Assembly (NCBI RefSeq): GCF_012396365.1
Contig: NZ_JAAXPG010000001.1
Span: forward strand, 186,001-250,000
Direction: 5' to 3'
From: Nocardiopsis alborubida
Lineage (GTDB): Bacteria > Actinomycetota > Actinomycetes > Streptosporangiales > Streptosporangiaceae
DNA length: 64,000 bases
The notes beneath the pieces are model-generated. The model worked only from the letters and a program-made list of their open reading frames with translations. It did not search any database and was not told the origin of the DNA. The translations under genes and the position numbers were made by a program. Of this stretch, positions 4,658-25,977 are shown in pieces. The stretch's first letter is position 1. Every line of letters begins with the position of its first letter.

Positions 4658-4693
4658 GGGGGGCGACCGGAATACGTGACGGATCGGCAATAG
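4658..4693 (+). repeat. Left terminal inverted repeat of the Tn3-family element
   Basis: Begins GGGGGGCGACCGGAATACGT. The first 24 bp are identical to the reverse complement of the right end; over 36 bp there are three mismatches (positions 25, 27 and 34). It lies 109 bp upstream of the transposase start. Confidence 0.92.
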
Positions 4694-9134: not shown

Positions 9135-10509
9135 GGGCGGCGACGAGGTCTTCGAGGCGGGCGGCCCGGGAGGCCTTGATCAAGACGAGGTCGCCGGGGT
9201 GAAGGCCGCGGTGGAGGACGTCGTGGGCCTGCCGTGCGTCACGGACGGAGACGATGTCGAGGTGGTCGCATGCGGCGCGGGCGGCGTCGGCGATCAGGGC
9301 GGCGTGGTCATCGCCGACCACGACCAGGAGGTCGAGAGCGGCCTGTGCGGCGAGCACGCCCAGGTGGCGATGGGCTTGAGCGGCGTGCTCTCCGAGCTCG
9401 GCCATCTCTCCCAGGACCGCGATGCGGCGACGCGCGGTCACCGAGGTCAGCGCGGTGAGAGCGGCCGACATCGAGTCCGGATTCGCGTTGTACGCGTCGT
9501 GGATGAGGGTAATACCGTCATCCCGGACGATGGTCTGCATACGTCCGGCGGACCTGGGCCGTGCCTCGGTCAGCGCCTGGGCGATCATCGCGGTGTCCAG
9601 ACCCAGGCCATGAGCGGTCGCCGCGACGGCGAGTGCGTTGCCGATGTGATGCCGACCGGTGAGCGAGAGCGTGACGGGCGCGGTGCCCTCGGGGGTGCAC
9701 AGGGTGAATCCCGCGCGACCGTCCTGGGTGAGGCGCACGTCGCGGGCGTGCACGCGCGTCGGATGGGGGTGGTGGCTCCACCACAGAGGGCGGGCACGGG
9801 TGCGGTCCGCCATGGCTGAGACGAGCGGATCGTCGGCGTTGAGGACGGCGAGGCCGCCGTGGTCGGCGTCGGGGAGTCCGGCGACCAGTTCGCTCTTGGC
9901 CACGGCGATCCCGGCCTGTCCGTCGGGGTACTGGCCGATGTGGGCGGTGCCGACGTTGAGCACCAGGCCTACATGGGGCGTGACCAGGTCGCACAGGTAG
10001 CCGAGGTGCCCGCGGCCCCGGGCACCCATCTCCAGGACGAGGTAGCGCGTGTCGGGGGTGGCGTGCAGGATCGTGAGGGGGAAGCCGAGTTCGTTGTTGT
10101 ACGAACCGCCGGTGGCGGTGACGGGTCCGTGGTGCGCCAGCACCTGGGCGGCGAGATCCTTGGTGCTGGTCTTGCCGTTCGATCCGGTGATGCCGATGAC
10201 GGTCGCCGACAGGTGGCCCGCCACGTGGCGGGCCAGCGCGCCGAGCGCGACGGTGACATCGGCGACCTGGACGGCCGGGGCGGCCACCGGCCGTGAGGCG
10301 AGCACCAGCGCCGCGCCCGCGGCGATGGCGGCCGGGGCGTGGTCGTGCCCGTCGGTGTGCCGGCCGGAGAGCGCGGCGAACAGGCCGCCGGGGTGGACCC
10401 GGCGTGAGTCGATGCTTGCGGGTGCCGTGACCCACAGGAGGGGGTCGGTGCCGGCGGTCAGGCGACCTCCAGTGGCCTCGGCGATGGCGGTTGCGGTCAG
10501 AGGTATCAC
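9121..10509 (-). CDS. murF: UDP-MurNAc-tripeptide--D-Ala-D-Ala ligase (MurF)
   Basis: Cytosolic ligase that adds D-Ala-D-Ala to the peptidoglycan precursor. 462 aa, full length. ATP-binding loop GITGSNGKTSTKD with K113; central motifs VLNVGTAHIGQYP and AVAKSELV, whose K205 aligns with the carbamoylated lysine of Mur ligases; then NADDPLVSAM and the C-terminal DAYNANPDSMSAAL and AVLGEMAELGEHA. All motifs are intact, so an active enzyme is expected. GTG start at 10509. It lies directly behind a decayed DUF6671-like gene and the first winged-helix regulator, in one transcription unit. A normal host copy is presumably elsewhere, so this is an accessory MurF. Confidence 0.92.
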   Translation of the reverse strand: MIPLTATAIAEATGGRLTAGTDPLLWVTAPASIDSRRVHPGGLFAALSGRHTDGHDHAPAAIAAGAALVLASRPVAAPAVQVADVTVALGALARHVAGHLSATVIGITGSNGKTSTKDLAAQVLAHHGPVTATGGSYNNELGFPLTILHATPDTRYLVLEMGARGRGHLGYLCDLVTPHVGLVLNVGTAHIGQYPDGQAGIAVAKSELVAGLPDADHGGLAVLNADDPLVSAMADRTRARPLWWSHHPHPTRVHARDVRLTQDGRAGFTLCTPEGTAPVTLSLTGRHHIGNALAVAATAHGLGLDTAMIAQALTEARPRSAGRMQTIVRDDGITLIHDAYNANPDSMSAALTALTSVTARRRIAVLGEMAELGEHAAQAHRHLGVLAAQAALDLLVVVGDDHAALIADAARAACDHLDIVSVRDARQAHDVLHRGLHPGDLVLIKASRAARLEDLVAALNDR

Positions 10510-10651
10510 GTGGTTGGACTCCTGCGCGCGAAGGCTCTTGCCCGTCGGTGTCGACGTCGTCGGCGAGGACCAGGCCCGGGGTCCGCTGTTCGGCGTGTCC
10601 GGTGGCCAGTGCGACGCGTGCGTCCGTACAGGGGTGGGCGGTGGCGGTCAC
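10510..10651 (-). pseudogene. Decayed DUF6671-like gene (copy 1)
   Basis: A remnant of the gene intact at 12495..13367. The translation starts MTATAHPCTDARVALATGHAE (GTG at 10651, overlapping the upstream regulator by GTGA exactly as in copy 2), then jumps to GLVLADDVDTDG after an internal deletion, and loses homology just before the murF start. About 250 codons are missing. The surrounding regulator copy is intact, so only this member of the duplicated cassette has decayed. Confidence 0.75.
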
Positions 10652-10947
10652 GCCACCTGGTCAGGGTCGATGCGGGTGCCGATGAGCACGGCCAGGAGTT
10701 CTCCGATGGCGGTGTCGCGGTCCATCGGATGGCGCAGCGGCAACTCCGCGTGCATCCGGTACCGGTTGCGGCGCCCCTCGCGCTCTCGTTCCAGGTACCC
10801 GGCTTCGACGAGATCCGCCACGATGCGCTGTGCGGCCCGCTCGGTGATGCCCACCTGCTCGGCGACATCCCGCAACCGGGCCTGGGGATCCCGCACCACG
10901 CACAGCAGTACGTGGGCGTGGTTGGTGAGAAACGTCCACTCCTGCAT
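10648..10947 (-). CDS. Winged-helix transcriptional regulator (copy 1)
   Basis: 99-aa winged-helix DNA-binding protein of a MarR/ArsR-like fold: HAHVLLCVVRDPQARLRDVA (helix 1-2), EQVGITERAAQRIVADLVEA (recognition helix) and GYLEREREGRRNRYRM (wing). 93 of 99 residues match copy 2 at 13364..13672; differences cluster at the C-terminus. No cysteine or other sensing motif is evident beyond one Cys. It heads the unit regulator - decayed DUF6671-like - murF and is divergent from a broken universal-stress-protein gene. A box ATGTCGTAT at 11007-11015 in its promoter recurs in the copy-2 promoter, suggesting autoregulation. Confidence 0.8.
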   Translation of the reverse strand: MQEWTFLTNHAHVLLCVVRDPQARLRDVAEQVGITERAAQRIVADLVEAGYLEREREGRRNRYRMHAELPLRHPMDRDTAIGELLAVLIGTRIDPDQVA

Positions 10948-11390: not shown

Positions 11391-12410
11391 TCACGGCTCT
11401 TCGGTGGTGTCCTCGCGCCCGGCCTCGGCGTCGTGCGCGCGAAGTGAGCCCGCGTGGGCCTTGGCCGTAGGGTCGCGGCGGGTCTTGGCCAGGCTCGCCA
11501 CGGTGACCACGACCAGGATCACGATGATCACCACCAGGCTCGCCAGCGTCGGGATCTCCGGGACCCGTTCGTCCAGGTCCACGTGGGCCCAGTGCAGAAG
11601 CAGCTTCGCGCCGATGAACATCAGGATGAGCGCCAGCCCGGTCGAGAGGTACACCAGCCGGTCGAGCAAGCCCTTCACCAGGAAGAACAGTGCGCGCAGC
11701 CCGAGCAGGGCGAACGCGTTCGCGGTGAACACGATGTAGGGCTCCTGGGTGATCCCGAAGATCGCCGGGATCGAGTCCACGGCGAACAGCAGGTCGACGG
11801 TGCCGATCGCGATCAGCACGATGAGCATCGGCGTGACCACACGGCGGCCGTCGACCCGGGTGAAGATCCTGCCACCGACGAACCCGTCGGTGACCGGCAG
11901 GACCCGCCGGGCCAGACGCACCACGGAGTTGTCCTCGATCGCGGGGTCCTCGTTGCGGTGCCGGAACAACTGGATCGCCGTGTAGATCAACAGCAGGCCG
12001 AACACGAGGAACATGAAGGAGAACAGTGCCAACAGCGCGGCTCCGAGTGCGATGAACACCGCCCGCATGGCCAGGGCGAGCACGATGCCGAACGTCAGCA
12101 CCTTGTGCTGATGCTCGACCGGTACCGCGAAGGTGGTGATGATGATGACGAAGACGAAGAGGTTGTCGACGGACAGGCTCTTCTCCACCAGGTAGCCGAC
12201 GAAGTACTCGGTGCCGAGCTCACCGCCGTGAGCCAGGGTGAACCACACGCCGAAGATCAGGGCCACCGCGATGTAGAAGACCGACCACGCGGTCGCCTCC
12301 CGGAACCCGACGCGGTGCGGTTTCAGCGCGGCGATGGTCAGGTCTGCGGCGAGCAGGGCCACGATGACGGCGATCGTGACGATCCACGTGGTAAGGCCGA
12401 TGTCGAGCAC
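11391..12410 (-). CDS. terC: TerC-family integral membrane protein
   Basis: 339-aa multi-pass membrane protein. TerC proteins are linked to tellurite resistance and, in better-studied cases, to manganese export or metal loading of exported enzymes. About nine membrane segments are visible, with the two signature acidic motifs EKSLSVDNLFVFVI (near 76-89) and DLLFAVDSIPAIFG (near 205-218). The tail after residue 305 is charged and cytosolic. GTG start at 12410, with AAAGGA upstream. It lies 84 bp downstream of the DUF6671-like gene, probably in the same transcript. No room exists for a yybP-ykoY riboswitch in the 84-bp gap. Confidence 0.88.
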   Translation of the reverse strand: MLDIGLTTWIVTIAVIVALLAADLTIAALKPHRVGFREATAWSVFYIAVALIFGVWFTLAHGGELGTEYFVGYLVEKSLSVDNLFVFVIIITTFAVPVEHQHKVLTFGIVLALAMRAVFIALGAALLALFSFMFLVFGLLLIYTAIQLFRHRNEDPAIEDNSVVRLARRVLPVTDGFVGGRIFTRVDGRRVVTPMLIVLIAIGTVDLLFAVDSIPAIFGITQEPYIVFTANAFALLGLRALFFLVKGLLDRLVYLSTGLALILMFIGAKLLLHWAHVDLDERVPEIPTLASLVVIIVILVVVTVASLAKTRRDPTAKAHAGSLRAHDAEAGREDTTEEP

Positions 12411-12494: not shown

Positions 12495-13367
12495 TCACGG
12501 ATTGCACCCGTCGCAGAACGTGGGGTCGGTGCTGACCCGACCGTCGTCTCTGGGGTGGCTGCTGCGATGAGGACACCGCTGGCATCCGTGGATGACGGCG
12601 AGGGTCTGTGATGTGGGCTCAGAGCAACTGTCGCACGGAAGGCCGGGTTCTCGGTCGACCTGGCCGTATCCGGGGGTGCCGCAGGCGGGGCACAGCGTGG
12701 CGAGGCGGTCGGTGAGCCGGTCGGCGAGCAGGCCGATCTCGCGCATGCGCGTGGGATTGAGGTGGGCGCGCATGTCGGTCTCCAGCCGGGCCAGGCCGTC
12801 CGCCGACCGTAGGGCGCACTCGTTGATCGCGGCGGCCAGTTCGGCGCGGGTCCGGATGCCTTTGCTGATAGGGCCGGGGTCCTGCGGATCGATTGGGGTG
12901 TGGGGGCGCACGATCATCGCGTGGGGGCCGAAACCGGTTCGGCCCAAGAACGCCTCGGTGGTCTCATCGAGGCGTCGGGCGGTGGTGTGGGCGAAGTTCG
13001 TGAGGCCCAGGCGGCGCTCCACGATGCACAGGTCCCGGGTGGTGTCGAGGAAGGCGAGGATCTCGTCGCCGGCACTGAGCATCGGAGCCATGGGATGCGG
13101 ACCGAAGGAGCCTTCGCTGGCCACGGCGAGCCCGAGGCCGGTCGACCGTAGACCGAGGCGTGCCTTGCGCACGGCGGTCACGGACGGCGATGCCGCGCGT
13201 GGGACCTCACCGGTGAAAGTGCCCAGCTCGTCGGTGTCGACGTCGTCGGCGAGGACCAGGCGCAGACCCGGGATGCGGGCCAAGGCCGGGCCCAGGACCC
13301 TCTCCTTGGCGTGTCTGGTGGCCAGTGCGACGCGTGCGTCCGCGTAGGGGTGGGCGGTGGTGGTCAC
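12495..13367 (-). CDS. DUF6671-like protein with C-terminal zinc ribbons
   Basis: 290 aa, function unknown. The N-terminal part (about 1-200) carries VALATRHAKERVLGPAL and ADDVDTDELGTFTGEV, which I associate from memory with the DUF6671 family. The C-terminal 75 residues contain paired cysteines (CPACGTPGYG, LPCDSCSE, CQRCPH, FCDGC), enough for two zinc sites. GTG start at 13367 overlaps the stop of regulator copy 2 as GTGA, so the two are coupled. It is placed between the regulator and terC and opposite the dab operon; a metal- or CO2-related role is possible but unproven. Confidence 0.75.
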   Translation of the reverse strand: MTTTAHPYADARVALATRHAKERVLGPALARIPGLRLVLADDVDTDELGTFTGEVPRAASPSVTAVRKARLGLRSTGLGLAVASEGSFGPHPMAPMLSAGDEILAFLDTTRDLCIVERRLGLTNFAHTTARRLDETTEAFLGRTGFGPHAMIVRPHTPIDPQDPGPISKGIRTRAELAAAINECALRSADGLARLETDMRAHLNPTRMREIGLLADRLTDRLATLCPACGTPGYGQVDREPGLPCDSCSEPTSQTLAVIHGCQRCPHRSSHPRDDGRVSTDPTFCDGCNP

Positions 13368-13672
13368 AGGGCCTCGTCAGGGCCGTTGCGGGTGCCGATG
13401 AGCACGGCCAGGAGTTCTCCGATGGCGGTGTCGCGGTCCATCGGATGGCGCAGCGGCAACTCGGGGTGCATCCGGTACCGGTTGCGGCGCCCTTCGCGCT
13501 CTCGTTCCAGGTACCCGGCTTCGACGAGGTCCGCCACGATGCGCTGTGCGGCCCGTTCGGTGATGCCGACCTGCTCGGCGACATCCCGCAACCGGGCCTG
13601 GGGATCCCGCACCACGCACAGCAGTACGTGGGCGTGGTTGGTGAGAAACGTCCACTCCTGCATATCCACCAT
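13364..13672 (-). CDS. Winged-helix transcriptional regulator (copy 2)
   Basis: 102-aa winged-helix protein, 93/99 identical to copy 1 from MQEWTFLTNHAHV onward. The start is taken at ATG 13672 (MVDMQEW); ATG 13663 matches the copy-1 start. It is the first gene of a unit regulator - DUF6671-like - terC and is divergent from the dab operon across a 117-bp promoter region holding two ATGTCGT boxes and a palindrome over the -10 hexamer. Most simply it controls both directions; ligand unknown. Confidence 0.8.
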   Translation of the reverse strand: MVDMQEWTFLTNHAHVLLCVVRDPQARLRDVAEQVGITERAAQRIVADLVEAGYLEREREGRRNRYRMHPELPLRHPMDRDTAIGELLAVLIGTRNGPDEAL

Positions 13673-13719
13673 GGCACCCCGTGGCAGGTGACTGATAGCA
13701 CGATTTTCATTACGCGCTA

Positions 13720-13760
13720 TTGATGTCGTACGATCCATGTCGTGTATACTAACACGCGTT
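13720..13760 (+). promoter_or_regulatory. Divergent promoter/operator of the dab operon
   Basis: TTGATG (13720-13725) and TATACT (13745-13750) could form a promoter with a long 19-bp spacer. ATGTCGTAC and ATGTCGTGT at 13723 and 13737 are direct repeats 14 bp apart. CGTGT...ACACG (13741-13756) is a 5-bp-arm palindrome covering the -10. A repressor bound here would block dab transcription. The strong ribosome site GGGAGGTGAG follows at 13776. Confidence 0.45.
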
Positions 13761-13789
13761 ATCAGTGACGTGCTTGGGAGGTGAGTGTC

Positions 13790-14116
13790 ATGGGTGGCAT
13801 CGAGATGGCGCGTGTGCCGACCGTTGGTCAGCCGACGGCCGACGAGGCTTCGCGGGGTCGGATGCACCGGTGGTCCCCGTCACCGGACGCGACGATCAAC
13901 ACCGGCTCGCCGGGCTCCATCGGTGCCCCCGGAGCGGGACGGGGACGGCCGCTCCGCCGCGTGACCCGCGGTGAGTCGGCACGGGTGCGGATCAGTGGTT
14001 TCCACGGACGTGCCCTGCCCGCACATCCCTCGGAAACCATCGCCGCCGACGTCACCGCGACCCCGGTCTCGGGTCGCGCCGCGAAGGGCGCTGAGACGGA
14101 AGGTGCGGCCGCGTGA
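13790..14116 (+). CDS. Small disordered protein, first gene of dab operon
   Basis: 108 aa, unrecognised. ATG at 13790 has GGGAGGTGAG 4 bp upstream, and its stop overlaps the dabB start (GTGA at 14113), so it is translated and coupled to dabB. The sequence is rich in Gly, Pro, Arg, Ala and Ser, with no membrane segment or signal peptide, and looks intrinsically disordered (GAPGAGRGRPLRRVTRGES). It may simply be a leader that delivers ribosomes to dabB, or an accessory/regulatory subunit of the DAB complex. Confidence 0.6.
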   Translation: MGGIEMARVPTVGQPTADEASRGRMHRWSPSPDATINTGSPGSIGAPGAGRGRPLRRVTRGESARVRISGFHGRALPAHPSETIAADVTATPVSGRAAKGAETEGAAA

Positions 14117-15693
14117 CGGGGATGATGCTGGTGGCCTTGGCGGCCCTTCCCGCCGTCGCGGCGATGACCGGATCGATCCGGAGCCTGCGACCCCTGGCAC
14201 CCGCGCTGGGCGCGGGCGCGGCACTGTCGACGACCGCACTGGCCGGGGCTCTGGCCGTGACGGTGGCCCTCGGCGGACCGGTGGCGATGGTGTTGGCCGC
14301 TCCGGACGGGCACGTCTGGACCGGGTTGGCGGCCGACCGCCTCGAGGCGATCGTGCTGTTGTTGGTGTGCGCGATCAGCGCGGTGGTCCAGGTGTTCGCC
14401 CTGCGCTACCTGCGCGGCGACCCGGCCGCGGCCGGGTTCGCCATCACGGCCGGGGCGCTGACCGCCGCGACCGCGGTGATGGTGGCCGCGGTCACGATGG
14501 TCACCCTGGCGGTGGCGTGGTCGCTGACCGGTGTCGCCCTGTGGCGACTCGTGGGGATGTACCGACCCGCCCCTTCGGCCATCGACGCCTCCCGCCGTAC
14601 CGCACGTGTGGTCATCATCGGAGACGTCGCATTGTGGTCCGGGGTGGTTCTCGCGGTCGCCGCCTGGGGCGATCTCGACTTGCGCGACCAGAACGGCGTA
14701 GCCTTCGGCGGCGCGGTGGGCACGGCGGTGGCCTGCTCGCTGGTGATCGCCGCAGCCGCACGGTGTGCGCAGTTGCCTTGGCACCGGTGGCTGTCGGCGA
14801 CTTTGGCGGCGCCGACCCCGGTCTCGGCGCTGCTGCACGCCGGCGTGGTCAACGCGGGCGGAGTGCTCCTGGTGAAGCTGTCGCCGATCTTCGGTGCAGC
14901 CCCGGCGGCGACACACCTGGCGTTCGCCATCGGCGCCGTCAGCGCTGTGGCCGCCACGGCGATCATGCTGACCCGCCCCGACGTCAAGGGCTCGCTGGTG
15001 CACTCCACGATCGGGCAGATGGGGTTCATGCTCATGACCTGCGCGCTCGGCCTCTACGCGGCGGCGGTGGTGCACCTGGTGGCGCACGGACTGTTCAAAG
15101 CCACCTTGTTCCTGGGCTCGGGGTCGGCGGTGCAGCGCCACACCCACCGCATCCTGGCTCCGCCCGCGCCCCGGTCGACCCCCGCGCGTTCGGCGCAGGT
15201 GGCCGTCCTCGCCGGAGCCGTCGCGGTTGCGGCCGTGGCCGTCGCGATCTGGTGGCTGCCTCCGCACGCCGGAGGCTCGGCGCTACTGATCTTCGCCGCG
15301 GCCACCGCCGCACGGCTGGCGTGGGGATGGCTGCGGCGCCACCCGACCGTGGGGGCGCTGGCCACCGTGGTGGTCGTGCTGCCGGGTGCGGTGATCGGCT
15401 ACCTGGGCGTGGTGGCCGTGGTTACGGAGTTCCTGGCCCCGAGCGTGCCCGTTGCCGCCACCGCCGCAGTTCCGGCCTGGTTGCCGGCGATCGTGGTGGC
15501 GGTGCCGGTGATCGGAGCGCTGTTGGTCCACCGGGCATCCGCACTCGGTCTCGGCCGCTGGCGCGACCGCCTCTACGTGTTGGCGTTGTCCGCCGGACAG
15601 CAGCGCACGCACACCACTCCGGGTCTCCCGTCACGTGCGGTGCCCGCACCGCACCCACGGCCGGTGCCCCTACCTGAGGGAGCCGGGGCGTGA
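14113..15693 (+). CDS. dabB: DabB, proton-channel-like subunit of DAB inorganic carbon pump
   Basis: 526-aa integral membrane protein of the NADH-quinone oxidoreductase subunit 5 / Mrp antiporter family. In DAB systems DabB pairs with DabA to couple cation flow to energized CO2 hydration and bicarbonate accumulation. About 13 helices are visible; signature segments are RCAQLPWHRWLSATLAAPTP, VSALLHAGVVNAGGVLLVKL and VHSTIGQMGFMLMTCALGLY, then HLVAHGLFKATLFLGSGSA. The lengthy C-terminal extension of true NuoL is absent, as expected for DabB. GTG start at 14113. DabA follows directly. Confidence 0.92.
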   Translation: MTGMMLVALAALPAVAAMTGSIRSLRPLAPALGAGAALSTTALAGALAVTVALGGPVAMVLAAPDGHVWTGLAADRLEAIVLLLVCAISAVVQVFALRYLRGDPAAAGFAITAGALTAATAVMVAAVTMVTLAVAWSLTGVALWRLVGMYRPAPSAIDASRRTARVVIIGDVALWSGVVLAVAAWGDLDLRDQNGVAFGGAVGTAVACSLVIAAAARCAQLPWHRWLSATLAAPTPVSALLHAGVVNAGGVLLVKLSPIFGAAPAATHLAFAIGAVSAVAATAIMLTRPDVKGSLVHSTIGQMGFMLMTCALGLYAAAVVHLVAHGLFKATLFLGSGSAVQRHTHRILAPPAPRSTPARSAQVAVLAGAVAVAAVAVAIWWLPPHAGGSALLIFAAATAARLAWGWLRRHPTVGALATVVVVLPGAVIGYLGVVAVVTEFLAPSVPVAATAAVPAWLPAIVVAVPVIGALLVHRASALGLGRWRDRLYVLALSAGQQRTHTTPGLPSRAVPAPHPRPVPLPEGAGA

Positions 15694-15833
15694 TCGCCGG
15701 CCCCTCGACGGGACCGCCGGACGGCGTCCGGCGCTCTGACCGGAGCCACCCGGGCCTCCCGGAAGCGCGGACCCAGGGCTTCACGCGGTCGCGCGTTCCG
15801 CCACCGTCATCACAGCAGGAGGAGTCGCAACCC

Positions 15834-18455
15834 ATGACCATCGGACCCATCACCAAGGCCGCTCCCGAGACCGCCACCTCGGCGGCCGCCGTGCGTGCCG
15901 TGATCGCCGATGCCGCCGCGTTCTTGGCGCCGACCTGGCCGCTCGCCGACTTCATCGCGGTCAACCCACTGTCCGGCCTGGTGGACCGCCCGTTCGCGGA
16001 CGCGGCCATCACCGCCGCGGACCTGCTCGGAGCGCGGGTCACCCCGGACGAGAGCTGGCTGCGGGCGGCCTGGCGGCACGGGCGGATCACCGACGACGAC
16101 GTGCGTGCCGCGCTGATCCGCCGCCACCCCGAGGTGCTGCGATGCCGACCGCTCACCCTCGGCGGCCGGCCCTACGACCCGGTCGAACTCCTGTCGGCCG
16201 ATCTGCACCAGGGCATCACCAACCCCCCGCCGATCCGCCAGGCACGCACAGCGACTGAAGCGCTGGCCCCGGACATGGCCGCCCTCCTCGACACCCACAC
16301 GATCCAGTGGTGCTCGGCCTATTTGGACGAGGGCCAGTCCACCTGGCGGATGCCCGGCCGCGACCGAGGCTTCTACCACGCGTGGCGGGCTCTGGCCGCA
16401 CACGACACGACCCTGCCGCGGCGCGTGCGTACACGTCTTCGGGACCTGCCCGAACGGGCCGAGCAGGCCGTTGCGGAGGCTCTGGCCGCCCTCGGTGTCC
16501 CGGACGACCAGCGCACCCGCTATCTCCAGGCCCATCTGGCATGCCTTCCCGGATTCGCCGCCCACATCCGCTGGCGGGGCGAACTGCAGGGCAGTGGTAT
16601 CGACCTGGTCGCCTACCTCGCCCTGCGGTTGACCACCGAAGCCGCCGCGCTCACCGAGACCCATACCCACGGTACGGCGTGGAACTCGGCCTCCGCCGAC
16701 CTGCTCGACACCGGGCAGGCCACCACCGAACCCGACGATCGGGCCCGCCACCTTCTGGCGGCCCTGGAGATCACCGACACCGACGCGGCACAGCGCACCG
16801 AATTGGCGCGGTTCCTCGACCGACTCCCGGTGGAGCAACGAGCCCTCGTCTGGCTGGACGCCTACGAAGACCACTACCGGAGCCGACTGCTGCGCACCCT
16901 GAGCCGCTCGGTGCCCGAGTGGACCGACGCCCCTCCGCGGGCACAGGTGGTGTGCTGCATCGATCCCCGTTCCGAGGGACTGCGCCGCCACCTGGAAGCG
17001 CTCGGTGACTACCAGACCCTGGGCTTCGCCGGATTCTTCGCCGTCGCCATGCGCTACCGCGACCTCGCCGGAGGAACCGCTCGTGCCCAGTGCCCGGGCC
17101 CGATCACGCCCCGGCACACCGTCACCGAACGCCCCAGCGAGGGTCGACGGCGCGCGGCCGAACGGTCGCTGACCGGCCGCCGGGTACTGGCCGCGGCCGA
17201 CCACTCCCTGCACGCCGCCAAGGACGACCTGGTGGCGCCGTTCGTGCTCGCCGAATCGGCCGGTTGGCTCCTGGGCCCGTTGGCCGCGGCCAAGACCTTC
17301 GCTCCCGGTGCCGTCGGCGCCGCCCGCGCGTGGTGGACCCGCCGTATCACCCCCGACCCTGCGACCGAGATCTCCCTCGAGGACGCCTTCACCTCCGAGG
17401 AGCGCACCGCGACCGCCGAAGGCATTCTCACGTTGATGGGTTTGACCCAGGGGTTCGCACGCCTCGTCGTATTCTGTGGGCACCGTGCCCACACCGACAA
17501 CAACCCCTACCAGGCCGCGCTGGACTGCGGTGCATGCGGGGGGCACCCCGGCGGTCCCAACGCCCGCGCCGCCGCCGCCCTGCTCAACGATCCGCAGGTT
17601 CGCCGACATCTCGCCGAACGCGGCATCGGCATTCCCGACGACACCCGGTTCGTTCCGGCCGAACACGACACCACCACCGACACCGTGCGCCTGTTGGACA
17701 CCCACCTCCTGCCCGACACCCACCGCCGGGACGTCGACCGGCTCACCGCCGATCTTCGCACGGCCGGCGCACACCTGGCCGCCGAGCGCTGCGCCACCCT
17801 ACCGGGCGCACCTTCCCGGCCCCGCCCACGGCACGCGGCGCGCCACACCCGCACACGCGCCCGTGACTGGGCCCAGGTCTTCCCCGAATGGGGTCTGGCC
17901 GACAACGCGGCCTTCCTCATCGCACCCCGCGCCCTCACCCGGGGCATCGACCTGCACGGCCGTCTGTTCCTCCACGACTACGACCCCGACCTCGACCCGG
18001 CCGGCACCGTCCTGGAGACCATACTCACGGCGCCGCTCGTCGTCGCGCACTGGATCAACAGCCAGTACTACTTCGCCGCCACCGACCCCCAGGCCTTCGG
18101 CGCCGGCAGCAAGGCCCTCCACAATGTCGTCGGCGGTGGCCTCGGTGTCATGACCGGTCACACCGGCGACCTTCGGTCCGGCCTGCCCTGGCAGTCCCTC
18201 ACCGACGGCCACCACACCAGGCACGAACCGCAACGCCTGCTCGCCATCGTGCAGGCACCCTTGCAGCGGTTGGACACCCTCATTGCGCGTCACACCGTGC
18301 TGCGCCACATGTTCGACCACGACTGGGTCGGTCTCGCCGCACGCGAGCGCCCCGATGAACCCTGGCTCCGTTACACCTCCACCGGTTGGCGGCCCTGGCT
18401 TCCGGCCACGGTCACCCCCGAGGGCAGCTGTCCGTCCGCACCGCTGAGCACATGA
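15834..18455 (+). CDS. dabA: DabA (DUF2309), carbonic-anhydrase-like subunit of DAB carbon pump
   Basis: 873 aa, UPF0753/DUF2309. DabA is a peripheral zinc protein related to beta-carbonic anhydrases that hydrates CO2 when coupled to DabB. The zinc/catalytic residues are all present: C375 and D377 (VVCCIDPRSEGL), H550 (VVFCGHRAHTDNNPY) and C565 (ALDCGACGGHPGG), with the 15-residue H-C spacing of characterised DabA. Start ATG 15834 is preceded by AGGAGG (15819 region); an upstream in-frame start at 15690, overlapping dabB, would add 48 low-complexity residues and is less likely. Same operon as dabB. No Rubisco or carboxysome gene is nearby, pointing to anaplerotic use of bicarbonate. Confidence 0.93.
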   Translation: MTIGPITKAAPETATSAAAVRAVIADAAAFLAPTWPLADFIAVNPLSGLVDRPFADAAITAADLLGARVTPDESWLRAAWRHGRITDDDVRAALIRRHPEVLRCRPLTLGGRPYDPVELLSADLHQGITNPPPIRQARTATEALAPDMAALLDTHTIQWCSAYLDEGQSTWRMPGRDRGFYHAWRALAAHDTTLPRRVRTRLRDLPERAEQAVAEALAALGVPDDQRTRYLQAHLACLPGFAAHIRWRGELQGSGIDLVAYLALRLTTEAAALTETHTHGTAWNSASADLLDTGQATTEPDDRARHLLAALEITDTDAAQRTELARFLDRLPVEQRALVWLDAYEDHYRSRLLRTLSRSVPEWTDAPPRAQVVCCIDPRSEGLRRHLEALGDYQTLGFAGFFAVAMRYRDLAGGTARAQCPGPITPRHTVTERPSEGRRRAAERSLTGRRVLAAADHSLHAAKDDLVAPFVLAESAGWLLGPLAAAKTFAPGAVGAARAWWTRRITPDPATEISLEDAFTSEERTATAEGILTLMGLTQGFARLVVFCGHRAHTDNNPYQAALDCGACGGHPGGPNARAAAALLNDPQVRRHLAERGIGIPDDTRFVPAEHDTTTDTVRLLDTHLLPDTHRRDVDRLTADLRTAGAHLAAERCATLPGAPSRPRPRHAARHTRTRARDWAQVFPEWGLADNAAFLIAPRALTRGIDLHGRLFLHDYDPDLDPAGTVLETILTAPLVVAHWINSQYYFAATDPQAFGAGSKALHNVVGGGLGVMTGHTGDLRSGLPWQSLTDGHHTRHEPQRLLAIVQAPLQRLDTLIARHTVLRHMFDHDWVGLAARERPDEPWLRYTSTGWRPWLPATVTPEGSCPSAPLST

Positions 18456-18504
18456 CGACCGGGCACGTGCAGCGCCACTTCACTCCAGGAAAGGGAAGTA
18501 CCCG

Positions 18505-19026
18505 ATGAACATGCTCCTGTTGGTTCGAAGCGTGGACGACGTCAGGTCCGCGGTCGAGAACGTGAGCGACTATCTGGTCAACCATCGACGGCAGTTCGGG
18601 GATGAACCGGGATCGAACCGGCTGCTCGGACTGTGGATCCGCCCCGAGCTCGAAGCCGGGCTGCCCGTCCTGCTCCCTGGCGCCGCTGACGTCACCCCCA
18701 CTCAACCGCCCTCTGAAGCGGTGGGGATCGAGAGGTCGTTCTCGCTGGCGGGCATCTGGACCCTGTGCTGGACGGACGGGCCCGCCCTGCGGGAAACACA
18801 GGACCCGTTCGAGCTGCGCAACCGGATCCTCGATGCCCTGGTGGCGGACGCAGCGCCCGAACCGGCCGTTCCGGAGGCGTTCGTTCCCGTATTCGCCGAG
18901 GACGATGCCGTGGAGACGAGCATGGCGGCGCTACAGGCCCGGTATCCGCGGCTGATCACCGAGCACTGGTACGTCGATGACCGAGAACGAGGAATCGTCG
19001 GGCCGCTGAAGACCACGGAAGGGTGA
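18505..19026 (+). CDS. Hypothetical protein downstream of dabA
   Basis: 173 aa, family not recognised. Starts MNMLLLVRSVDDVRSAVENV with AGGAAAGGGAAG just upstream, 49 bp after dabA, same strand, so probably the last gene of the dab operon. It is soluble, acidic, with no signal peptide, membrane helix or cysteine motif; a mixed alpha/beta fold is likely (ERSFSLAGIWTLCWTDGP, RYPRLITEHWYVDDRERG). Could be an accessory factor of the carbon pump. Confidence 0.65.
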   Translation: MNMLLLVRSVDDVRSAVENVSDYLVNHRRQFGDEPGSNRLLGLWIRPELEAGLPVLLPGAADVTPTQPPSEAVGIERSFSLAGIWTLCWTDGPALRETQDPFELRNRILDALVADAAPEPAVPEAFVPVFAEDDAVETSMAALQARYPRLITEHWYVDDRERGIVGPLKTTEG

Positions 19027-19223: not shown

Positions 19224-19269
19224 AACGTCACCGCCTAGAGAAACGCCCCCTAGCTGGCCCTTGAGTTCT

Positions 19270-20085
19270 AGTGGTCGTTGCAACACCCCATCTCTGAAGG
19301 GGTGCGATGGACGACGAGATCCGCAAAGAACGCCGGATACCGCAGGGGCGCAAGAAGCTCGTCCGTGAGCGGGAGGAATACTTCCGGCTCACGGACCAGG
19401 GCTACAGCAGCAGAGAGGCCTGCCGGATCGTCGGCATCAACCGGCGTACCGGCAAGGTCTGGCGCAACGGTCGCAGAGCGCACAAGAGCCTGGAGAGGCC
19501 CGTGGCACCCCTCAGGGGCCCCGGGGCCTCTCCGGGCTCTTCGCGTTTCCTGAGCCAGCAGGAGCGGACGCAGATCGCCGACATGTTGCGTCTGCGGTCC
19601 TCGATCCGCTCGATCGCCGCCGAGCTGGACCGGGCCTCGTCCACGATCAGCCGCGAGGTCCGCCGCAACCGCTCCTACTACGCCTCCATCAAGAAACACC
19701 GGTACGGCCCCTACGCCGCCCAGGTCCGCACGGACGAGCGCAGGAAGCGACCCAAGACCCGCAAGCTCGACGCCAACTCGCGGCTGCGCGAGTATGTCCA
19801 ACAGCGCCTGGATCAGCGCTGGAGCCCCGAGCAGATCGTTCACCTGCTCCGCCGGGACTTCCCCGACGACCAGGAGATGCGCGTGGGCCACGAGACGATC
19901 TACCAGGCCCTCTACGTCCAGGGCCGCGGCCAGCTGCGCCGCGACCTGGCCAAGCTGCTGCGCACCGGACGCACCATGCGCCGGCCCCGCCGCTCCGCTT
20001 GCACCCGCCAGCCCCGCATGTCCAAGAACATGGTGATGATCAGCGAGCGCCCGGCCGAGGCCGCCGACCGGGCGGTGCCCGGCCA
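19270..20085 (+). mobile_element. IS30-family insertion sequence, right part deleted
   Basis: The left end starts near TGGTCGTTGCAACACC. The transposase frame opens at ATG 19307 and shows the IS30 N-terminal helix-turn-helix regions (DQGYSSREACRIVGINRRTG; LRSSIRSIAAELDRASSTIS), then RWSPEQIVHLLRRDFPDD and VMISERPAEAADRAVPGH. Homology stops exactly where the first catalytic motif (WEGD) should begin, at about 20085, and passes into antisense fetB. The DDE domain and right inverted repeat are gone, so it is inactive; the open frame continues to 20245 only by chance. Confidence 0.85.
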
Positions 20086-20260
20086 CGGCGAACAGCACAC
20101 CCAGCACCGCGCCGACAGCGGCCAGTTGCAACGCGGCGCGGACCGCCGCCCACAGCAGATCCCGGCTCAGGGCCAGACGCTGGGCATGGGCCAGTGCCAG
20201 GGCCAGCGCGACGAAGACGGTGCACAGCGCGACCACGCCCCATGACGGTGCCGCGGTCAT
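20086..20260 (-). pseudogene. fetB: FetB-type ABC permease, N-terminal fragment
   Basis: ATG at 20260 overlaps the fetA stop (ATGA). The roughly 58 codons read MTAAPSWGVVALCTVFVALA, then RLALSRDLLWAAVRAALQLA and VGAVLGVLFAVAG, the first two helices of the FetB/YbbM (UPF0014) iron-export permease. It is cut at the junction with the IS30 remnant; about 190 codons are missing. Without it the FetA ATPase has no partner here. Confidence 0.75.
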
Positions 20261-20922
20261 GGTCCCTCCATCAGGTAGTCCAGGCTCTGGGGTGGCCCGT
20301 GTGCGGCCAGGCGGCCGTGGTCGAGGACGAGTACGGCGTCGGCGGCGCGGATCCAGGAGCGGCCGTGGGTGGCGGCGAGCACACTGGTTCCGGCAGCCGT
20401 GAGGGTGCGGGCCACCTCGGGCACGACCCGGGCGGCGGCCCCGTCCAGCGCGCTGGTGGGTTCGTCCAACAGCAGCACCTCGGGCTGCAGGGCCAGGGCA
20501 CGCGCCAGGCACAGGCGCTGGGCCTGGCCTCCGGACAGGCCCGCGGTGGGGCGGTGGAGAAGACCGGTCGGCAGGCCGAGGCGACCCAGAAGATCGGCGG
20601 CAGCCGCCTGGCCGAGGTCGGGGCGCCCGACGCGCAGTTCGGCGGCGACGCTGTCGGTGAGCAGTACCGGGTGCTGGGCGACCAGCACCACACGGCGGCG
20701 CGGGGCGAGCACGTCGGTCTCGGCCAGCGGGCGGCCGTGGAAGGCGAGGTGCCCGCGGGTGGGCTCCGCCAGACGGTTGAGCAGGCGCAGCAGTGTGGTC
20801 TTCCCGGCGCCGCTGGGGCCGGTGACGATGGTCAGGCGCCCCTGGCCGACCTCGGCGTCGATCCCGTCGAGGAGGGGAGCCCCCTGCTGGTCGAATCCGA
20901 CACCGGTCATGGAGAACACCAC
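20257..20922 (-). CDS. fetA: ABC transporter ATPase, FetA/YbbL type
   Basis: ATP-binding subunit of a FetAB-type exporter (iron efflux and oxidative-stress protection in E. coli). About 221 aa, matching FetA. Walker A GPSGAGKTTLLRLLNRL, Q-loop VVLVAQHPVLL, signature GLSGGQAQRLCLARAL, Walker B VLLLDEPTSALDG, H-loop AATHGRS. The start chosen is GTG 20922, after GGGAG; the frame is open to 20955. The permease gene behind it is truncated, so this gene is probably an orphan. It diverges from the DUF1259 gene across a palindromic operator. Confidence 0.8.
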   Translation of the reverse strand: MVFSMTGVGFDQQGAPLLDGIDAEVGQGRLTIVTGPSGAGKTTLLRLLNRLAEPTRGHLAFHGRPLAETDVLAPRRRVVLVAQHPVLLTDSVAAELRVGRPDLGQAAAADLLGRLGLPTGLLHRPTAGLSGGQAQRLCLARALALQPEVLLLDEPTSALDGAAARVVPEVARTLTAAGTSVLAATHGRSWIRAADAVLVLDHGRLAAHGPPQSLDYLMEGP

Positions 20923-20966
20923 GCCCGCACACTCCCTGTTTCCTACACCCCACATACGGATAGTTA

Positions 20967-20982
20967 TGAAACCATGGTTACA
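20967..20982. promoter_or_regulatory. Palindromic operator between fetA and DUF1259/chr operon
   Basis: A perfect 10-bp palindrome AACCATGGTT (20970-20979), extended imperfectly to 16 bp (TGAAACCATGGTTACA), in an AT-rich patch between the divergent genes. Position 33-48 bp before the DUF1259 start. Candidate binding site for the chromate-responsive ChrB or another repressor. Confidence 0.45.
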
Positions 20983-21014
20983 TGTTCGGTGGAGGTACGG
21001 GGGAAGGAGTGGAT

Positions 21015-21980
21015 GTGATCACGCACCACAGCAGGTCGAAGGCGGCCCTGGCGCTGGGGTTGGTGGTTGTGCTGAGTGCCTGCTCGGCGGGCCAGGCGGA
21101 CCAGCAACAGCAGGACCAGCAATCGTCCGAGGCCCTGGTCGAGCCGGCCACCACACAGGCCCAGGACTGGGCGCAGGTGGCCGACGCGCTGGGACGGGAG
21201 GGACAGCTCTCCGATGACACGGTCTACCGGGTGGGCTTTCCCCGCTCCGACCTGGACGTGACCTCCCGGGGGGTGCAGATCGGAGCGGGGTTCGCCCTGG
21301 GCTCCTACGCGGCCTTCACCCGCTATGAGGACGGCACGACGATGATGATGGGCGATCTGGTGGTCACCGAGGAGGAGCTGCCCGGGGTCACCGACGCCCT
21401 GCAGGACAACGGCATCGACCAGACCGCGGTGCACCAGCACCTGCTCGACCACGAGCCCGCGGTGTGGTGGACCCACTTCCACGCCCACGGCCAGGACGCG
21501 GCCGCGCTCGCACAAGGGGTCGACGAGGCGTTGGAGGCCACCGCCACCCCGCGCGAGGCCCAGGACGGGCCGTCGCAGGAGCTGGATCTGGACACCGCGG
21601 CCGTGGATGAGGCGATGGGCACCCAGGGCCGCGCCCAGGGCGGGGTGTACAAGTTCTCCTTCGCCCGCACCGGCCAGGTCACCTCCGGTGACCACGTGCT
21701 GCCCTCAGGCATGGGGGTGGCCACGGTGATCAACTTCCAGCCCACCGGCGGGGGTAAGGCGGCGGTCAACGGCGACTTCGTCATGACCGCTGACGAGGTC
21801 CAGGGGGTGATCCAGGCGCTGCGGGAGGGCGGCATCGACATCGTCGCGCTGCACAACCACGCCCTCAACGACCAACCGCGTCTGTTCTACATGCACTTTT
21901 GGGCCAACGATGACGCGGCCACGCTCGCCAGGGCGTTGAGGAACGCGGTGGACCAGCACCAGGTCGAGCCCACCGGCTAG
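21015..21980 (+). CDS. DUF1259 (LppY/LpqO-type) lipoprotein
   Basis: 321 aa, secreted lipoprotein: the signal peptide ends in the lipobox VVLSAC. It contains two DUF1259 repeats, residues about 50-175 (QIGAGFALGSYAAFTRYEDG...THFHAHGQ) and about 195-315 (VATVINFQPTGGGKAAVNGDF...ALHNHALNDQPRLFYMHFWAND), each with His-rich loops that might bind metal. GTG start at 21015 with GGAAGGAG 5 bp upstream. DUF1259 proteins are recurrent neighbours of chromate transporters; here it is the first gene of the chr operon. Exact function unknown. Confidence 0.82.
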   Translation: MITHHSRSKAALALGLVVVLSACSAGQADQQQQDQQSSEALVEPATTQAQDWAQVADALGREGQLSDDTVYRVGFPRSDLDVTSRGVQIGAGFALGSYAAFTRYEDGTTMMMGDLVVTEEELPGVTDALQDNGIDQTAVHQHLLDHEPAVWWTHFHAHGQDAAALAQGVDEALEATATPREAQDGPSQELDLDTAAVDEAMGTQGRAQGGVYKFSFARTGQVTSGDHVLPSGMGVATVINFQPTGGGKAAVNGDFVMTADEVQGVIQALREGGIDIVALHNHALNDQPRLFYMHFWANDDAATLARALRNAVDQHQVEPTG

Positions 21981-22029: not shown

Positions 22030-22245
22030 TTGCGACCGCAAAACGCGCTGGACTGGGTTGCTTTCGTGTTGCTGTTGATCGGCGCGTTCGCCTGGGGGGC
22101 GTTCGTCACCGACGTCAACGTGCTGGACCGCCTGCTCGAACCCATCGCCGACCCACTCGACGACACGGTGTTCATCCTCATCGCCGCAGCCGGACTGTAC
22201 TGGATCGCCCGCGTGATCGGTGTGGGCAGACGGGCCCGGCAATGA
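22030..22245 (+). CDS. DUF378-like small membrane protein
   Basis: 71 aa with two transmembrane helices: LDWVAFVLLLIGAFAWGAFV and FILIAAAGLYWIARVIGVG, the DUF378 layout. TTG start at 22030 with AGGAGAGGAG upstream; the stop overlaps the next start (ATGA at 22242). Second gene of the chr operon. Role unknown. Confidence 0.7.
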   Translation: MRPQNALDWVAFVLLLIGAFAWGAFVTDVNVLDRLLEPIADPLDDTVFILIAAAGLYWIARVIGVGRRARQ

Positions 22246-22739
22246 ACGCTGAGCCCGCCGCGCAGGGGCCGGGCGAGTGGGTGCTGTTGAGCTACCGGAT
22301 CCCGCGCGAGCCCTCCACCCCCCGCATCAGCGTGTGGCGCAAACTCAAACAGCTCGGCCCCGCCCAGATCAGCGACGGCCTGGTCGCGCTGCCGGCCGAT
22401 GCGCGCACCCGCGAACACCTGGACTGGATCGCCGAGGAGGTCGTGGAGGCCGGAGGGACGGCCACCGTGTGGCTGGCCCGGCCCACCGCCCGGGCCCAGG
22501 AACATCACCTGGCCCAGACCATGGCCCAGGCCCGCGCGGCCGAATACCGCGCCGTGCGGGCCGAGGCCGCCCACGCCCGTAGCCTGCCCGAACCCGAACG
22601 CCTCCGGGCGATGCGCCGGCTGCGTACCCAACTGCGCCGCATCGCCCGCCGCGACTACTTCCCCCCGCCCGAGCGCCGCACCGCACGCGAGGCCGTCGAG
22701 GCCCTACATCCAGACCACACCGAACAGGAGAGCGCATGA
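22242..22739 (+). CDS. chrB: ChrB N-terminal-domain protein (chromate-responsive regulator)
   Basis: 165 aa matching the N-terminal half of ChrB, the chromate-sensing transcription regulator: WVLLSYRIPREPSTPRISVWRKLKQLG and DGLVALPADARTREHLDWIA, then a long helical, Arg-rich C-terminus. It overlaps both neighbours by 4 bp. In proteobacterial ChrB this domain is fused to the domain encoded by the following gene; here the protein is split in two. It likely represses or activates the operon by binding near 20970, which is inference. Confidence 0.82.
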   Translation: MNAEPAAQGPGEWVLLSYRIPREPSTPRISVWRKLKQLGPAQISDGLVALPADARTREHLDWIAEEVVEAGGTATVWLARPTARAQEHHLAQTMAQARAAEYRAVRAEAAHARSLPEPERLRAMRRLRTQLRRIARRDYFPPPERRTAREAVEALHPDHTEQESA

Positions 22740-23167
22740 AGTGGTCCACCCGCGCCGGTATCCACATCGACCGAGCCGCCTGCGCCTGGCTGATCCGCCG
22801 CCGCATCGACCCCGAGGCCGAGTTCGTGTTCGTCACCGACCCCGCCGACGTGCCCGAGCAGGCCACCGCCTTCGACATGCGCGGCGTCGAGTTGGGCCAC
22901 CACGGCGGCGACTGCAGCTTCGAGACCATCCTGCGCCGCTACGACCTCACCGACGCGGCGCTGTGGAAGATCGCCGAGGTCGTCCACGAGGCCGACCTGG
23001 ACGACGAACGCTACGACGCCCCCGAGGCCCCCGGCTTGGACGTGGTCCTGCGCGGTTTGTCGATGACCGGTAGCGACGAGCGCACCCTGGCCGTCACCGG
23101 TCCCCTCTTCGATGGCCTGTACGAGTACTACCGGCGCCAGAGCCTCCTGGGACGGGAACCCGCATGA
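22736..23167 (+). CDS. ChrB C-terminal-domain protein (chromate resistance)
   Basis: 143 aa, Chrome_Resist family (C-terminal ChrB domain): MKWSTRAGIHIDRAACAWLIRR, FVFVTDPADVP, FDMRGVELGHHGGDCSFET and a C-terminal YEYYRR. Conserved Cys, His and Asp residues could bind metal or substrate. ATGA overlaps on both sides show tight translational coupling with chrB and chrA. Confidence 0.85.
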   Translation: MKWSTRAGIHIDRAACAWLIRRRIDPEAEFVFVTDPADVPEQATAFDMRGVELGHHGGDCSFETILRRYDLTDAALWKIAEVVHEADLDDERYDAPEAPGLDVVLRGLSMTGSDERTLAVTGPLFDGLYEYYRRQSLLGREPA

Positions 23168-24762: not shown

Positions 24763-24875
24763 CCGTGTGACAGAGAATCAAATATTCTCTGTCACACGGA
24801 TCCGGGTGTGCCCCGCGCGGCCTGCGTCGAGGTGTTCGCCGGCCGCAGGTGACTCCGTAACATTCTCTGTCACAC
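24763..24875. promoter_or_regulatory. Putative internal resolution site (IRS) of the transposon
   Basis: A perfect inverted repeat with 16-bp arms, CCGTGTGACAGAGAAT (24763-24778) and its complement (24784-24799), around a 5-bp centre CAAAT. A third copy of 14 bp of the right arm (ATTCTCTGTCACAC) lies at 24862-24875, in direct orientation 78 bp downstream and 15 bp before the recombinase start. A palindromic core plus direct accessory copies next to a tyrosine recombinase is the design of the TnpI site in Tn4430. It also spans the recombinase promoter, so binding may autoregulate. Confidence 0.75.
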
Positions 24876-24890
24876 CAGCCGGGAGGTGTT

Positions 24891-25936: not shown

Positions 25937-25972
25937 CTGTTGCCGCTTCGTCACGTATTCCGGTCGCCCCCC
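25937..25972 (-). repeat. Right terminal inverted repeat of the Tn3-family element
   Basis: Read on the minus strand from 25972 it begins GGGGGGCGACCGGAATACGT and matches the left end at 33 of 36 positions. A TTG codon at 25940 inside it is in frame with the downstream PAP2 fragment. Confidence 0.92.
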
Positions 25973-25977
25973 GTGTT
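25973..25977. repeat. Target-site duplication, right copy (GTGTT)
   Basis: GTGTT directly abutting the right inverted repeat, identical to 4653-4657. Confidence 0.9.

Follow-up and report, generated by a model that had tools for sequence, protein, structure and literature searches.

DABs, inorganic-carbon transporters built of the subunits DabA and DabB, are spread over many phyla, and the reason why heterotrophs that have carbonic anhydrase (CA) keep them is a standing question. This question is raised by a stretch of 64,000 nt from Nocardiopsis alborubida (contig NZ_JAAXPG010000001.1, positions 186,001 to 250,000; in the following, the window), in which a dabBA operon (13790–19026) is situated within a Tn3-family element of 21,315 bp (4658–25972) that extends well past it. 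Our analysis revealed that this 21.3-kb transposon carries the DabBA operon and that it moved recently, as an identical copy is present in a second genus. Beyond that, we consider it reasonably probable that the transposon carries a module for CO2 scarcity, in which DabBA is combined with a regulator, support proteins, and Sua5 and MurF enzymes suited to low CO2 (Table 1).

In regard to the ends of the element, a scan of the window for inverted repeats yielded 171 pairs; among the 25 longest, the sole pair of 36 bp (4658–4693 and 25937–25972) was 92% complementary and began with a run of G, while the others listed ranged from 70 to 81%. The tnpA gene starts 109 bp past the left repeat, the gene for a tyrosine recombinase ends 89 bp short of the right one, and the transposase carries the Tn3-type signature (NF033527, 653 bits with a cut-off of 500, E 6e-196). 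Directly outside the repeats, the 5-bp duplication GTGTT was found on both sides (4653–4657 and 25973–25977). The insertion site is a PAP2 phosphatase gene: rejoining of the flanks resulted in an intact open reading frame (ORF) of 234 residues, and the match carried on across the junction in every one of the 29 relatives that were aligned; these come from 39 other genomes searched, and the 30 loci retrieved include the window itself. Thus, the 21,315-bp element jumped into the PAP2 gene. All 21,315 bp were also present, at 100% identity, in Allonocardiopsis opalescens (L038), here at an unrelated site with the duplication CACCT and with a nested 5.8-kb insertion inside the recombinase gene; since flanks and target duplications differ, contamination is unlikely. 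The exact pair of repeat ends was identified in two of the 345 genomes of the order, namely the host (G000) and A. opalescens (G459), and some match with up to three mismatches in 16 of the 345 and, within the genus, in two of 40. A scan for a Tn3 repeat pattern, tried as an element finder, was dropped because its 55 matches did not exceed chance (44.7 expected). An earlier note on this DNA, made from the sequence alone, had placed the operon on a transposon, and this is borne out by the exact ends, by the target duplication and the empty site in relatives, and by the identical copy in a second genus.

The operon itself comprises a leader ORF, DabB, DabA, and a further gene, ORF3, and runs from the ATG of the leader to the stop codon of ORF3, with the leader stop overlapping the GTG start of DabB. 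DabA (ATG at 15834, stop at 18455) is full-length and covers 747 of 747 positions of the PF10070 profile. The only solved chain that it matched at E-values up to 0.001 was DabA2 of DAB2 (PDB 9rd0) from Halothiobacillus, with 300 of 780 aligned positions identical (phmmer alignment to 9rd0_A). In this alignment, C351, D353, R355, H524, and C539 of DabA2 correspond to C375, D377, R379, H550, and C565, and the Cys-His-Cys zinc ligands (C375, H550, C565) as well as the Asp-Arg dyad (D377, R379) are all kept, in agreement with the earlier note, which had listed C375, D377, H550, and C565 as retained. Glu444, the finger glutamate of the proton path, corresponds to Glu474 of the motif FVLAES in an alignment of 50 rows, whereas the pairwise alignment placed it in a gap. 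Mutation of the five DabA2 residues from C351 to C539 impaired growth, according to the excerpted text of PMC13144422. DabB was compared by eye with NuoL-type chains, not with DabB2 itself; the motifs SALLH, KGSLVHS, and HLVAHGLFK are kept, an arginine stands at the place of NuoL Lys229, and uncharged residues occupy the positions of the second ion pair. No sign of a dead dab gene was detected in the sequence. Altogether, DabBA is a complete pair with every tested catalytic residue of DabA and is predicted to be active. Among other loci, dabA of genome G009 (near 433–435 kb) matched as two separate pieces, and in a divergent DabA group of seven loci (L134–L140) the 50-row alignment showed alanine in place of the finger glutamate.

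For this host, two obvious uses of the operon were rejected. Dab as a substitute for a missing CA fails as the main explanation, as the host genome has three matches to PF00484 (beta-CA family) and each of the 40 genomes of the genus at least one; because the host is not CA-deficient, a CO2-independence trait gained in one step, as the earlier note had suggested, finds little support. An autotrophic CO2-concentrating mechanism for the Calvin cycle was dismissed since no match to PF00016 was found in the host genome, nor in G009, G020, and G040, by a search that covered the RuBisCO large subunit only; four of the 18 carriers examined have such a match. To the extent of this one subunit, the presumed heterotrophy of the host stands. 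DAB homologues occur in heterotrophs and pathogens (PMC13144422, in excerpt), and finding one in a heterotroph is thus no novelty. In staphylococci, co-expression of MpsAB and CA brought no growth benefit, as reported in the available part of PMC8552792.

DabA was detected in three of the 40 genomes of the genus and 31 of the 394 of the class. This distribution is as patchy as had been supposed, and we attribute it to delivery by the transposon, given its ends, its duplications, and the identical copy in a second genus. A DabA protein search led to 34 loci in named genomes or metagenome-assembled genomes (42–100% identity), of which 16 form an island clade (79–100%; L038–L050, L054, L062, L063). 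Nine island loci from Amycolatopsis, Prauserella, Pseudonocardia, Saccharopolyspora, and Saccharomonospora have 12–22.6 kb in common at 99.7–100%; P. parietis shares a further 1.6-kb piece with these near-identical loci (98.5–99.9%), and N. metallicus and Murinocardiopsis flavida have 16.6 kb in common (99.4%). In Amycolatopsis, Prauserella, and Saccharopolyspora, a tnpA gene follows DabA at a distance of 8–9 kb; it was rejected as part of the same transposon, as its own repeats bound a Tn3-type element of about 7 kb without dab (checked in P. muralis, at about 40.9–47.9 kb of its stretch). Near these tnpA genes, a wider stretch (28–38 kb in single matches) is at least 99.9% identical across genera. 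The cassette has evidently been transferred several times, and not always by the same vehicle, since in the nine loci it lies outside the neighbouring Tn3-type element (checked in P. muralis). A search of phages for DabA resulted in one unannotated 5.9-kb Staphylococcus phage record.

We think that the associated cargo, which the earlier note had missed, is the more interesting part. Tblastn with the cargo proteins revealed a kept gene order in the island loci, namely Sua5, MurF, (winged helix, TerC), DUF6671, winged helix, DabB, DabA, ORF3, with Sua5 in 14, MurF in 15, and IlvD (downstream) in 12 of the 16 loci, counts that stand for far fewer independent cases given the nine near-identical copies. 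The P. muralis island additionally harbored isocitrate dehydrogenase, IlvD, a short-chain dehydrogenase/reductase (SDR), and a second Mur ligase, and the Microlunatus locus an isocitrate dehydrogenase and an AIR (aminoimidazole ribonucleotide)-carboxylase domain. On a plasmid of Nocardia cyriacigeorgica with a DabA of 52.6% identity, DUF6671, winged helix, Sua5, DabB, and DabA were found as well. In 14 of 15 mycobacterial loci, P-II and beta-CA genes follow DabA, their identities being confirmed by Pfam on plasmid copies, and nine of the 15 had a DUF6671 match, one of them weak.

Sua5 and MurF of the element are additional copies, because the host keeps its own MurF (next best match in its genome, 50% identical to that of the element) and a short Sua5-type gene (only other Sua5 match, 38% identical). 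The structure model of the DUF6671 protein (predicted local distance difference test, pLDDT, 84) matched RdgB in Foldseek (E 7.2e-4) and YjjX with a VIA Z of 12.8 (root-mean-square deviation 3.2 over 139 residues), and eight cysteines are invariant within residues 226–290 of 15 sequences. The modelled fold is thus ITPase/HAM1/YjjX-like, and as a guess the protein might serve in nucleotide clean-up or sensing. The model of ORF3 was weak (pLDDT 65). In Nocardia, one protein joins a winged helix and an ORF3-like domain (L095:3380–4294); the regulator at 13364–13690 and ORF3 therefore probably make up a single regulator in two parts. The winged helix and the first part of DUF6671 are directly duplicated (10540–10861 and 13226–13577, about 90%), and TerC lies between the two; in the left copy, DUF6671 is reduced to a remnant.

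The association is not confined to the island clade, and related packages were found in Actinobacteria and Proteobacteria. Among 72,556 plasmid records, 12 contained DUF6671 and 123 contained DabA. All 12 DUF6671 records revealed an inorganic-carbon transporter in the fetched stretch, which was a DAB in eight and SbtA in four. The DAB lay within three genes of DUF6671 in seven of the eight and 12 kb off in Methylocystis; the SbtA records belong to one Pseudomonas and three Arthrobacter, three being annotated and the Pseudomonas one recognized by PF05982. Relatives of ORF3 were found in three plasmid records in all, each among these 12 loci. A CO2-linked enzyme was detected in seven of the 12 stretches: Nocardia (Sua5), Mycolicibacterium (CA), Pseudomonas (PyrC, IlvD, Sua5, and MurF), two plasmids of Arthrobacter U41 (IlvD), Methylocystis (many), and Fuscovulum (IlvD). 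The most striking case is plasmid pSDM007 of Pseudomonas hygromyciniae (L266:8040–17317), where TerC, DUF6671, PyrC, IlvD, Sua5, ORF3, MurF, SbtA, and P-II lie within 10 kb. Its ORF3 homologue is 32% identical to ORF3 of the window (E 3e-20), and the 88.7% identity between its SbtA and the Arthrobacter protein marks an exchange between phyla. Queries with the set of Sua5, MurF, IlvD, and PyrC gave no match in 20 control stretches of 20 kb (16 in genomes of the class-wide DAB sample and four in G000, G009, G020, and G040), and a separate neighbour-gene search of these stretches found one TerC. The pSDM007 cluster adjoins a Tn3-family transposase, and several of its genes are annotated in pieces or not at all. 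Plasmid pGW6_1 of Methylocystis rosea (L270) harbors a DAB with bioD, bioA, crotonyl-CoA carboxylase/reductase, pyrC, ilvD, cysD, and DUF6671, and the same stretch also contains acyl-CoA carboxylase, formylmethanofuran dehydrogenase subunit A genes, and a molybdopterin oxidoreductase.

Several enzymes of these loci depend on CO2 or bicarbonate. MurF, PyrC, and IlvD use a CO2-carbamylated lysine, and candidate lysines are present here (K205 of MurF, at K202 of E. coli; a VK motif in PyrC; GCDK in IlvD). MurE is likewise a Mur ligase with a carbamylated lysine (PMC3829189, in excerpt), and TsaC of the Sua5 family forms threonylcarbamoyl-AMP (TC-AMP) from threonine, bicarbonate, and ATP (PMC11648230, in excerpt). 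According to the seen part of PMC5951830, human YRDC has a high Km for bicarbonate (13 mM for TC-AMP formation), and in human mitochondria bicarbonate limits the formation of N6-threonylcarbamoyladenosine (t6A; overall Km 31 mM).

On this basis, we propose that low CO2 or high pH would cause the regulator to let go of the dab promoter. DabB would then admit protons and DabA would hydrate CO2 one way to bicarbonate, with the proton gradient driving the trapping of CO2, and cytosolic bicarbonate would rise when CO2 is scarce, e.g., at alkaline pH. Linkage and a gene fusion suggest that DUF6671, and the winged helix together with ORF3, may regulate or support uptake. The extra Sua5, with bicarbonate as substrate, and MurF, with its carbamylated lysine, would be back-up or low-CO2 versions of the housekeeping enzymes that fail first, and tRNA modification and wall synthesis could continue. 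In related mobile kits, SbtA would take the place of the DAB, and PyrC, IlvD, a second Mur ligase, or CA would be added. Hosts with CA may keep a DAB because CA alone brings CO2 and bicarbonate into equilibrium but has no means of concentrating either. More tentatively, and with a little less than even confidence, we suggest that low-CO2 kits are traded in general on transposons and plasmids, each with an interchangeable pump (DAB or SbtA), winged helix and ORF3, DUF6671, and isozymes (Sua5, MurF, PyrC, IlvD, BioD, AIR-carboxylase-like) tuned to scarce CO2, for instance in alkaline mineral habitats.

Habitat gives some leads in this direction. N. metallicus originates from alkaline metallurgical residues and tolerates pH 10.5 (PMC12654561, in excerpt). 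In Arthrobacter crystallopoietes plasmid pLDW-10 (L282), SbtA and DUF6671 lie beside the Na+/H+ antiporter NhaA, a Ca/Na antiporter, TerC, and two hemolysin-family genes, neighbours pointing to alkaline or sodium stress. As leads only, the epithets of four of the 16 island carriers hint at walls (L048, L049, L054, L062), and Murinocardiopsis is, by its source, presumably a fifth wall-associated one; sampling of type strains is a bias for any such comparison of habitats.

Several observations weigh against the proposal, in addition to the CA genes of the host. No CO2-linked enzyme was seen in five of the 12 DUF6671 plasmid stretches, the seven fall to six if CA is not counted, and two of the seven are from one Arthrobacter strain; besides, the list of CO2-linked enzymes was made after the loci had been seen, and cysD, isocitrate dehydrogenase, and SDR, also present in the loci, fit it poorly. 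Sua5, MurF, IlvD, PyrC, and ORF3 were found in none of 20 class-wide DAB loci (20 of the 31 genomes; omitted were the window, the Jiangella island G284, and nine others, several on short contigs). These 20 loci revealed CysD in two, DUF6671 in four (one partial), P-II in eight, CA in six (one weak), winged helix in eight, and TerC in two. Of six DAB plasmids chosen without DUF6671, only that of Sphingobium had clear CO2 genes (bioD, CA); Pseudomonas ANT_J16 had only TerC, Phaeobacter glycine cleavage genes, Sulfitobacter a Ca/Na antiporter, and Pantoea, at a greater distance, a purine NTP pyrophosphatase; the Rhizobium record carried no annotation. Since the gene tables of plasmids have gaps, absences judged from annotation are soft. 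The second SbtA/DUF6671 locus of A. crystallopoietes (L282) is without a CO2-linked enzyme, and so is the SbtA locus of Aureimonas, which also has no DUF6671 and only TerC. Finally, Sua5 on a Streptomyces yangpuensis plasmid lies near a GTP-binding protein, L32, and CA, an arrangement resembling zinc homeostasis; near Sua5 of another Streptomyces plasmid, neither CA nor zinc-type genes were found. Plasmid-borne Sua5 or MurF alone therefore fails as a marker of the kit (three of many plasmid records were examined), and the notion that all DABs travel with CO2 enzymes fails too, as most DABs examined lack the kit. The kit is thus a property of a DUF6671-type subset of loci.

An alternative is that the operon is a common DAB which provides bicarbonate to cells growing in air and was picked up by chance as transposon cargo, with Sua5, MurF, and TerC as functionally unlinked passengers. 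Most DABs examined lack the kit, DABs are already known in heterotrophs, and the other genes of the element are mixed (chrBA, FetA-like, DUF1259), which would suit such a history. Nevertheless, the order Sua5-MurF-DUF6671-helix-turn-helix (HTH)-DabB-DabA-ORF3 is kept across several diverged lineages, and Sua5, MurF, ORF3, and DUF6671 reappear with SbtA on the Pseudomonas plasmid, so that we regard chance cargo as unlikely, at roughly one chance in a handful. Improbable to a clearly higher degree is a metal or oxidative stress module, in which DabA, ChrA/ChrB, and TerC would give protection from chromate or further metals. E. coli became more tolerant to chromate with a DUF2309 (DabA) gene from Leptospirillum (PMC9080137, in excerpt), chrBA and TerC are on the same element, and the island carrier N. 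metallicus comes from metallurgical residues; against this, ChrA matched in the fetched flanks of no relative except the identical A. opalescens copy, and in the window a transposase remnant separates the two blocks. A set of paralogues for zinc starvation, for which the S. yangpuensis plasmid and the occurrence of PyrC paralogues in zinc regulons could be cited, is very improbable, since MurF, Sua5, and IlvD are not known as zinc enzymes, DabA itself retains its zinc ligands, and Na-dependent bicarbonate transporters recur with the gene set. We give just as little credit to inhibitor- or antibiotic-resistant copies of MurF, IlvD, Sua5, and PyrC: MurF lies beside a D-alanine-D-alanine ligase on a Streptomyces plasmid and mobile MurF can have other roles, yet this would leave unexplained why DUF6671 is constantly found with DAB or SbtA.

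The remaining cargo lies downstream of ORF3 (Table 1). The region 19307–20255 appears as the scar of an insertion followed by a deletion, with the FetA-like partner left at 20257–20955; we take the transposase fragment to be of IS30 type and the interrupted gene to be FetB-like, and a relative of the fragment was found in another genome of the genus (L025:4992–5812, 72% at the nucleotide level). Beside the tyrosine recombinase gene, a palindrome (24764–24798) is centred on TGTGACAGAGAAT/ATTCTCTGTCACA, and an extra half-site (24860–24879) adjoins this gene as well.

Table 1. Features of the Tn3-family element and its borders in the window of N. alborubida
Feature	Position	Strand	Evidence
Left target duplication GTGTT	4653–4657		Identical to 25973–25977
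Left terminal inverted repeat, 36 bp	4658–4693	+	92% complementary to 25937–25972
Tn3-family transposase TnpA, 1012 aa	4803–7841	+	PF01526 E 2.1e-126; NF033527 E 6e-196
Long-type Sua5, threonylcarbamoyl-AMP synthase, extra copy	8109–9134	+	PF01300, PF03481
MurF, extra copy; Lys205 aligns with E. coli MurF Lys202	9121–10509	-	PF08245, PF02875, PF01225; alignment to 1gg4
Winged-helix regulator copy 1, then DUF6671 gene remnant	10648–10947	-	PF12802; direct repeat of 13278–13577 at 90%
TerC/Alx family membrane protein	11391–12410	-	PF03741; TIGR03718 E 1.8e-109
DUF6671 protein, predicted ITPase/HAM1/YjjX-like fold and Cys-rich tail	12495–13367	-	PF20376; model pLDDT 84
Winged-helix regulator copy 2, divergent from dab	13364–13690	-	PF12802 1e-06; similar genes beside DAB in relatives
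Conserved block between regulator and dab leader, putatively promoter/operator-like	13720–13800		Alignment of 5 loci
Leader ORF, 108 aa here, longer in Pseudonocardia and Streptomyces	13790–14116	+	Sequence; alignment
DabB, proton-channel subunit, 526 aa	14113–15693	+	PF00361 E 2.5e-33; PF00662; 9rd0_B DabB2 E 5.4e-30
DabA, zinc subunit, 873 aa (C375, D377, R379, E474, H550, C565)	15834–18455	+	PF10070 E 1.7e-258; 9rd0_A E 2.7e-119
ORF3, kit-specific protein	18505–19026	+	No Pfam or NCBIfam match; plasmid relatives
Transposase gene, 5' part, interrupted inside presumed FetB-like gene	19307–20080	+	HTH domains; 72% nt match to L025 over 19260–20086
ABC ATPase, FetA-like	20257–20955	-	PF00005; PRK10247 FetA E 3.6e-37, below its cut-off
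DUF1259 protein	20982–21980	+	PF07485 E 3.6e-88
ChrB in two ORFs (22242–22739, 22736–23167)	22242–23167	+	PF20229, PF09828
ChrA chromate transporter	23164–24591	+	PF02417 E 1e-68
Palindrome beside recombinase, candidate resolution site	24764–24798		Sequence
Tyrosine recombinase, likely co-integrate resolvase	24891–25847	+	PF00589 E 1.9e-17; XerC-like, below cut-off
Right terminal inverted repeat, 36 bp	25937–25972	-	Inverted-repeat scan
Right target duplication GTGTT	25973–25977		Sequence

DAB operons, DABs in heterotrophs, and cargo on Tn3 elements are already known; what we propose as new is the dab operon as part of a recurring mobile package with DUF6671, ORF3, and CO2-linked enzymes. A literature search on DabA/DUF2309 with transposon or mobility found no such cargo, as far as titles and abstract starts show, and in one DabA paper "transposon" refers to a mutagenesis screen (PMC13144422, in excerpt). 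A search on DUF6671, or on IlvD with carbamylated lysine, gave no match, which does not mean that DUF6671 is absent from print. If confirmed, a kit crossing phyla would exceed a variant of known DAB or Tn3 cargo: CO2 starvation would then select on heterotrophs strongly enough for mobile islands to arise, with t6A modification of tRNA and lysine carbamylation as its weak points. If the companions are low-CO2 versions, the kit names the ordinary reactions that fail first, which can be tested gene by gene, and the DUF6671 and ORF3 families gain a functional context.

Among known systems, DAB2 of Halothiobacillus neapolitanus (PDB 9rd0; PMC13144422, in excerpt) is alike in its two-gene complex, zinc ligands, Asp-Arg dyad, and finger glutamate, whereas the Nocardiopsis host has no match to the RuBisCO large subunit and its operon is carried by a transposon together with a regulator of its own, DUF6671, ORF3, Sua5, and MurF. 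MpsAB of Staphylococcus aureus is likewise a DAB homologue in a heterotroph, where it supports growth at the CO2 level of air (PMC6689103, PMC8552792, both in excerpt); there, MpsAB and CA rarely coexist according to the available part of PMC8552792, while the Nocardiopsis host keeps beta-CA-family genes. SbtA-SbtB (Sbt_1 with P-II) has companions in common with the DAB loci, namely DUF6671 (four plasmid records), IlvD (three of the four), and Sua5 with MurF (Pseudomonas), although SbtA belongs to another Pfam family (PF05982). The element itself agrees with Tn3-family transposons that carry a tyrosine recombinase in its TnpA, 36-bp repeats, 5-bp duplication, and recombinase, and differs from the known ones in its cargo, an inorganic-carbon uptake module.

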